Assembly: GCA_020848275.1 (NCBI GenBank)
Contig: JADLAK010000058.1
Location: 56,574 to 120,573 of the forward strand
Direction: 5' to 3'
Source: Planctomycetota bacterium
GTDB taxonomy: Bacteria > Planctomycetota > UBA8742 > UBA2392
Length of the DNA stretch: 64,000 nucleotides
Under the pieces are notes generated by a model. It saw only the letters and a program-made list of their open reading frames with translations, was not told the DNA's origin and did not search any database. Below are positions 17,856-60,106 of the stretch, in pieces; the first letter of the stretch is position 1, and each line of letters begins with the position of its first letter. The translations under genes and the position numbers were made by a program.

Positions 17856-17865
17856 CTGCATTTTC

Positions 17866-17933
17866 ACCGCGGAGTCGCGGAGCCGCAGTGAGCCGCTTGT
17901 TTTCTCCGCGTCCCCGCGTCCCCGCGGTTAAAT
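17866..17933. repeat. Word-hairpin element, family N (CCGCGGAGTCGCGGAG ... CTCCGCGTCCCCGCGTCCCCGCGG)
   Basis: Inverted CGCGGAG words between two genes. Confidence 0.85.
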
Positions 17934-49911: not shown

Positions 49912-49923
49912 ATTTCTTTTTTA

Positions 49924-50366
49924 CCACGGAGAACACGGAAAAACGCGGAGGTGTTCGTGGGCAAGCTATTGCTCGAAGAAGAAACGTACGCAATTCGCGG
50001 CGCTGCCATCGAAGTGCACAAGACAATGGGCCACGGATTCCTTGAAGCTGTGTATCAGGAAACCCTTGAAATAGAGCTTGGAGACCGAAATGTCCCGTTC
50101 GAAGCTCAAAAGGCTTTGAACATCACGTGCATAGGCCGCCTTCTTAAGAAACAGTACATCGCGGATCTAGTTTGCTTTGGAAGCGTGCTGGTAGAGATCA
50201 AATGCATTGCCAAAATCGGCGACGTCGAGCGTGCCCAGCTGCTCAATTACCTTGCGGCAACCGGGATCAAAGTTGGCCTGATCATCAATTTTGGAAGCCG
50301 AGGAAAGCTCGAAGTCGAGCGATTAGTGGTCTGACCTCACTCCGTGTGACTCCGTGTTCTCCGTGG
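49924..50366. mobile_element. Candidate cassette: GxxExxY gene bounded by perfect 16-nt inverted repeats CCACGGAGAACACGGA
   Basis: 49924-49939 CCACGGAGAACACGGA and 50351-50366 TCCGTGTTCTCCGTGG; nothing but the gene lies between. Confidence 0.75.
49951..50334 (+). CDS. GxxExxY family protein (PD-(D/E)XK nuclease-like)
   Basis: LGHGF-type motif GFLEAVYQ = GxxExxY; DLVCFGSVLVEIKCIAKI (D...ExK); GTG start. Confidence 0.9.
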   Translation: MFVGKLLLEEETYAIRGAAIEVHKTMGHGFLEAVYQETLEIELGDRNVPFEAQKALNITCIGRLLKKQYIADLVCFGSVLVEIKCIAKIGDVERAQLLNYLAATGIKVGLIINFGSRGKLEVERLVV

Positions 50367-50477
50367 CTAAAATTAGTGTTATGCGATTTTGTGCAATTCC
50401 GCCGCATAGGCGCATTTCATGGGGTAGAATCTCATTGGCGCGCTTCACTGACAATCTTGCATCAAAGGAGTGCGCCT

Positions 50478-52343: not shown

Positions 52344-52430
52344 TGACCACAGATAGAGACGGATAGAACGGATGGCGTGGGCAAGCTTCGCCCCTATCCG
52401 TTGTTATCTGTGTCCATCTGTGGTCAACAG
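52344..52430. repeat. Word-hairpin element, family L (TTGACCACAGATAGAGACGGATAGAACGGATGG ... CTATCCGTTGTTATCTGTGTCCATCTGTGGTCAA)
   Basis: Long inverted CACAGAT/ACGGAT words. Confidence 0.94.
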
Positions 52431-60033: not shown

Positions 60034-60106
60034 TGAGCGCGGAGCCGGAAGGCCCAGGAAAATTTTGCTCTTAACTCCGCTCTCCTCTCTCCGATCTCCG
60101 CGCTAA
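60034..60106. repeat. Word-hairpin element, family N-like (GCGCGGAG ... CTCCGCTCTCCTCTCTCCGATCTCCGCGC)
   Basis: Inverted GCGCGGAG ends immediately upstream of pyrF. Confidence 0.7.

Follow-up and report, generated by a model that had tools for sequence, protein, structure and literature searches.

REP/RAYT systems and REPINs combine a gene bracketed by inverted palindromic repeats with many gene-less palindromes. The intervening sequences (IVSs) of 23S rRNA are sporadic and are thought to be selfish and horizontally moved; the Coxiella IVS is 428 nt long, has a 28-bp terminal inverted repeat and contains a small ORF (PMC4990558). The nearest described word repeats are the TAACTGA heptamers of Beggiatoaceae, intergenic tandem repeats near gene starts that are scattered across phyla (PMC4679880). 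Here we describe a cassette in which a gene of the GxxExxY family, a common family of ‘function unknown’, lies between inverted arrays of short words. The cassette offers this family a concrete, testable role.

The cassette (49,918–50,372) was found in a planctomycete window, meaning the whole stretch of 64,000 nt that was analyzed. It does not lie inside 23S rRNA but is flanked by the gene of a VWA/HEAT protein and by a small gene, and is composed as follows.

49918 to 49950, + strand: left arm, an array of three tandem words
49951 to 50334, + strand: gene of a GxxExxY protein of 127 aa, with a GTG start
50340 to 50372, − strand: right arm, the inverted array, containing CACGGAG three times

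The words of the left arm are CACGGAG (49925–49931), CACGGAA (49934–49940) and CGCGGAG (49944–49950), in the layout CACGGAG aa CACGGAA aaa CGCGGAG. An earlier, sequence-only reading of this DNA had reported a perfect 16-nt inverted repeat around one tightly bracketed, PD-(D/E)XK-like GxxExxY gene, and both observations hold. The core CCACGGAGAACACGGA is exact at 49924–49939 (+) and 50351–50366 (−), and the single ORF between the tightly flanking arms matches the family profiles and carries the invariant D..ExK residues (see below). Beyond this core, the full arms reach 33 nt each and are 82% complementary. They represent terminal inverted repeats, a feature of DNA transposons and MITEs, and the cassette encodes no transposase, integrase or reverse transcriptase, the matched ORF being PF13366 only. 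Counts in the window's own 4.4-Mb genome were obtained from pattern searches, which gave 68 occurrences of the 16-mer with at most two mismatches and 0 of the reversed control pattern; the repeat is thus not a product of chance. Taken by itself, the CACGGAG 7-mer shows no enrichment in the window (13 vs. 10.7 expected), and a search of the arms for known RNA families gave no match above the gathering score.

The window protein matches TIGR04256 (GxxExxY; 4e-38, 130.4 bits at a cut-off of 35) and PF13366 (PDDEXK_3; 8.7e-37, 126.5 bits at a cut-off of 22). Residues G27, G29, E32, Y35, D72, E82, K84, and Y100 are invariant in an alignment of 20 diverse family members. The AlphaFold model (mean pLDDT 95) has Cas4 SSO0001 (4ic1; E 1.5e-4) as its best PDB match, followed by LHK-Exo and lambda exonuclease. 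By its D..ExK site and modeled fold, the protein is a predicted Cas4/lambda-exonuclease-like PD-(D/E)XK nuclease. A T7 endonuclease I-like resolvase was rejected, as its match by sequence was no better than E 0.77 and the Cas4/lambda exonuclease assignment fits the fold better.

The genome that contains the window (G000) has 15 matches to the GxxExxY family. Inverted arrays flank almost all of these copies, each time with a word of their own, including CACAGAG, CGCAGAT, CACGGAA, ACGAAGG, CGCAAAA, CGCGAAG, CGCCAAG, CGCAAAG, CACGAAA, and others. A first set, taken from G000 and its relatives, comprised 120 loci for which both flanks were available; they were compared by the best inverted-repeat (IR) score between their 200-nt flanks. 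A score of at least 20 was reached by 75% of the GxxExxY loci and by 3.2% of mispaired flanks. At a score of at least 18, 94 of the 120 loci contrast with 28 of 386 neighboring ORFs (Fisher p = 5e-52), and at a score of at least 25 the counts are 55/120 and 0/386. A separate set of 76 loci was taken from the GTDB genome collection (genome_contigs set), spanning Bacteroidota, Verrucomicrobiota, Planctomycetota, Acidobacteriota, Chloroflexota, Cyanobacteriota, Pseudomonadota, and more. Inverted flanks are present at 64 of these loci vs. 10 of 149 ORFs. The enrichment of inverted words around GxxExxY genes, which the sequence-only reading had put forward as a check, is therefore found in both sets, and the comparison shows that gene and inverted arrays are paired across many phyla. 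In cultured Bacteroides finegoldii, too, TTCACCACAGAGGACGCAGAGGACACGGAG and its inverse surround a GxxExxY gene adjoining radA. The flank inverted repeats of two GxxExxY loci, L296 and L280, are very long (scores 96 and 60) compared to the usual 30-nt arms. One copy in G000 (L003) has a direct instead of an inverted flank repeat of about 35 nt (gttatccgttttta...ccatctgtggtcaa).

Among close relatives the cassette comes and goes. At the window site, it is absent in at least six of them (G001, G004, G009, G011, G014, and G015), and in these cassette-free relatives the VWA gene found to the left of the window element is directly followed by the next small gene. A second site is occupied in G007, G013, and G006 by a gene with CGCGAAG-type words, is cleanly empty in the congeners G011 and G002, and in G014 is taken by a hairpin that lacks a gene and has another word (CACGAAA). 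Empty sites in close relatives, also named beforehand as a check, were thus found at both the window site and the second site, and they are precise. A third site contains a GxxExxY gene in G014 and remnants with 7-nt words, typical of a second cassette kind described below, in G007 and G015 (L329 3106–3270 and L338 1380–1540), so that insertion hot spots are common to the two kinds of cassette. A possible target-site duplication (CATGA) is seen at the second site only, the other sites being too diverged. Decayed copies in G000 keep their arrays; these include L013, which has no GxxExxY motif, L015, of which only a C-terminal piece is left, and the frameshifted L012 and L014. Recent transposition is not visible because the aligned G000 copies are just 25–52% identical to the window protein, and no near-identical copies occur within the genome.

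We consider it probable that these loci represent a selfish nuclease cassette of about 455 nt (the median cassette length), in which the nuclease recognizes its own words and from which the gene-less hairpins derive. The nuclease would read its words in DNA and introduce a cut in the arrays or next to them, possibly at a palindrome that is extruded or in single-stranded form, much as Cas4-like nucleases have single-stranded overhangs as their substrates. Through repair of this cut, the cassette would be gained, lost or copied. Hairpins that carry this type of word but no gene would be non-autonomous copies that arose by internal deletion, and/or would serve as landing sites. We infer that the nuclease mobilizes the cassette.

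The words follow the 7-nt consensus CRCNRAD (C-R-C-N-R-A-G/T/A), with about three words per arm at a spacing of 8–10 nt. Words are present in both arms at 95 loci, compared to 0 of 600 shuffles, and the two arms have the same letter at 3.77 of 4 variable word positions, compared to 1.88 with arms permuted. Facing words differ by 0.455 mismatches and non-facing words by 0.508 (p = 0.38); the value for words of the same arm is 0.535. Since facing words are no more alike than non-facing ones, the arms are not kept as a base-paired stem, and the conserved feature is word identity, shared by both arms and specific to the locus. Such conservation of a repeatedly read word points to recognition of the arrays by a protein.

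In the same genomes, genes of the four-helix-bundle family TIGR02436, to which the 23S rRNA intervening-sequence proteins belong, also lie between inverted tandem words that are specific to each locus; their period is 7 nt instead of the 8–10 nt of GxxExxY. An IR score of at least 18 is reached by 75% of these genes vs. 4.5%, and the loci in relatives (L155–L184) have words such as GCAGGAG, GTGTCTG, GGTGGCT, and AGTTGAT. Judging by this shared layout, they are a sister system to the GxxExxY cassettes, and the 23S rRNA IVSs, the origin of which has been open for decades, gain a second protein family of the same architecture. The analogous four-helix-bundle cassettes also lend some weight to an RNA-level cassette like the IVS, which we regard as rather unlikely. 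Such a cassette would be read with the operon, its arms would fold in the transcript, and the words would be processing sites cut by RNase III or the nuclease itself, so that the insertion is harmless to the neighboring genes. In its favor, the median length of 455 nt is nearly matched by the 428 nt of the Coxiella IVS (PMC4990558), the GxxExxY gene is mostly co-directional with its neighbors (27:3 upstream, 24:5 downstream), and the predicted folds of gene-less hairpins are very stable. However, word changes in one arm have no compensating change in the other, the words repeat inside one arm, which is needless for pairing, and the best matches of the protein among solved structures are DNA nucleases. 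The RNA-level reading can be compatible with a selfish nuclease cassette, as the way in which insertions are tolerated.

Word distance and protein distance are correlated (Mantel r = 0.23 for all loci and 0.36 for the multi-phylum set; no value this high in 2000 permutations). Mapped on the protein tree, the words show 12 changes at position 7 and 15 at position 5, each vs. 31 when shuffled, and the host phylum is distributed near randomly (20 changes vs. 23.4). Word change thus tracks the phylogeny of the nuclease and not that of the host. At orthologous loci, gene and arms stay together and the letters of the words drift; the covariation may partly be plain co-inheritance of gene and arms. 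The proposal that one GxxExxY protein serves all word hairpins in the window is unlikely, as the words are specific to each copy and co-vary with the protein. For residues 20 and 30 of the protein, a correlation with word position 7 makes them candidate specificity residues, but as a lead only, because shared ancestry was not removed from this correlation. If the nuclease does read its own word, the natural word variants would form a ready specificity series for a nuclease of about 127 residues.

Arrays also depend on the active site. They occur at 93 of 111 homologs with D..ExK and at 0 of 8 without it (L011, L148–L154; an antisense frame match in L002 is left out of this count), so that loss of the catalytic residues goes with loss of the arrays. 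Several of the D..ExK-less homologs have orthologous flanks between genomes and for this reason look vertically inherited; together they apparently form a domesticated, non-catalytic branch. This branch bears on a further explanation, namely that the nuclease serves the host in defense, repair or replication and that the arrays are operators or genome-wide signals. The conserved catalytic residues, the weak matches of Cas4 models to two family members and the many arrays per genome would fit such a role, but we hold it to be improbable: it is precisely the vertically inherited homologs that lack arrays and active site, the arrays stand on both sides of the gene, family f1 occurs as sporadic copies (2–15 per genome) with differing words, and insertions come and go between congeners. 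In addition, the family hardly occurs in collections of phages and viruses, with no match in 50,697 phage records and one distant match in 2.9 million viral contigs. PADLOC gave no match for the window protein either, and a phage-borne or defense gene was ruled out on these grounds.

The cassettes would account for families of puzzling intergenic palindromes. In the window, the following were recognized.

17865 to 17929: gene-less hairpin with the word CGCGGAG, a putative non-autonomous relative
52346 to 52424: gene-less hairpin with the words CACAGAT / CGGAT

The first, with its related word, had been reported at 17866, together with another at 60034 that is weak and was not counted. The hairpin at 52346–52424 (CACAGAT) is a better example than the latter and was absent from the sequence-only reading. 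Gene-less hairpins are numerous mainly in gene-carrying genomes (rho 0.61; median excess arrays 11 vs. 2). Array-rich genomes without a detected gene are G051, G044, and G057, all incomplete assemblies; G051 (L209–L216) has 73 CACCGAA-type arrays and no GxxExxY gene at E ≤ 0.001, and the assembly may lack its partner gene, or this gene may belong to another family. Some hairpins of G000 (L026, L031, L034, L036, L037, and L041; around 1490–1720) are nested, with a word-A array, a word-B array, a loop, inverse B and inverse A.

The view of an autonomous element with MITE-like copies is supported in part. It agrees with the deleted copies that keep their arrays, but not with the multi-copy CACAGAG hairpin of G023 (L217–L220). 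At least this one hairpin family is nested in an ordinary IS-like MITE with its own terminal repeats (ends AGAGCYTGTTTAAA) and was spread by it, which rules out its copies as proof of autonomous spread. One of the G023 copies shows a tandem expansion of a 9-nt unit. A hairpin family traveling in this way, and intergenic sites that host different elements in different species, would also be expected if the palindromic word arrays were hot spots in which small genes land by other means as passive cargo. We find this very improbable, given that the grammar depends on the enclosed gene (8–10 nt for GxxExxY, 7 nt for the four-helix bundle) and that the words follow the protein tree. Chance or an assembly artefact, for which we found no supporting point, can practically be dismissed, as the pattern is replicated in independent genomes, many phyla and cultured B. 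finegoldii.

A search of a library of 5.4 million papers yielded no description of GxxExxY word-array cassettes; two papers name GxxExxY and one names PF13366, with passing mentions of the family. Like REP/RAYT, the GxxExxY gene is flanked by inverted palindromes and accompanied by dispersed gene-less palindromes, but it encodes a PD-(D/E)XK nuclease and not a Y1 HUH tyrosine transposase, and its arrays consist of three tandem words that differ per locus. Like the 23S rRNA IVS, the cassette has one small ORF, a size of about 430–450 nt and terminal inverted repeats of about 30 nt; unlike the IVS with its S23/four-helix-bundle ORF, it encodes a PF13366 protein with a nuclease fold, lies between protein genes, and has tandem locus-specific words and gene-less relatives. 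The TAACTGA repeats are one fixed word in direct repeats upstream of genes (PMC4679880), show no link to a particular gene family that they flank, and resemble the 7-nt grammar of the four-helix-bundle cassettes, not that of GxxExxY. The protein shares its predicted fold with Cas4 (SSO0001 as best match) and lambda/RecB-type exonucleases, but has roughly 60% of their length and lacks the conserved iron-sulfur cysteines of Cas4, with no invariant cysteine in the 20-sequence alignment. Like homing endonuclease genes, the cassette would be a nuclease-only selfish gene without a transposase, but it is found in intergenic gaps between its own arrays instead of in a conserved target gene, intron or intein. 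There is, in our judgement, an even chance that GxxExxY and four-helix-bundle cassettes together form an unrecognized class of minimal mobile elements in many phyla, in which a small nucleic-acid-binding protein and its two inverted arrays are matched and co-evolve; if true, this class would be a natural collection of many nuclease-word pairs. We rate the GxxExxY cassettes as outside each known class tested because they lack a defining feature of each, with an outline as in REP/RAYT and IVS elements.
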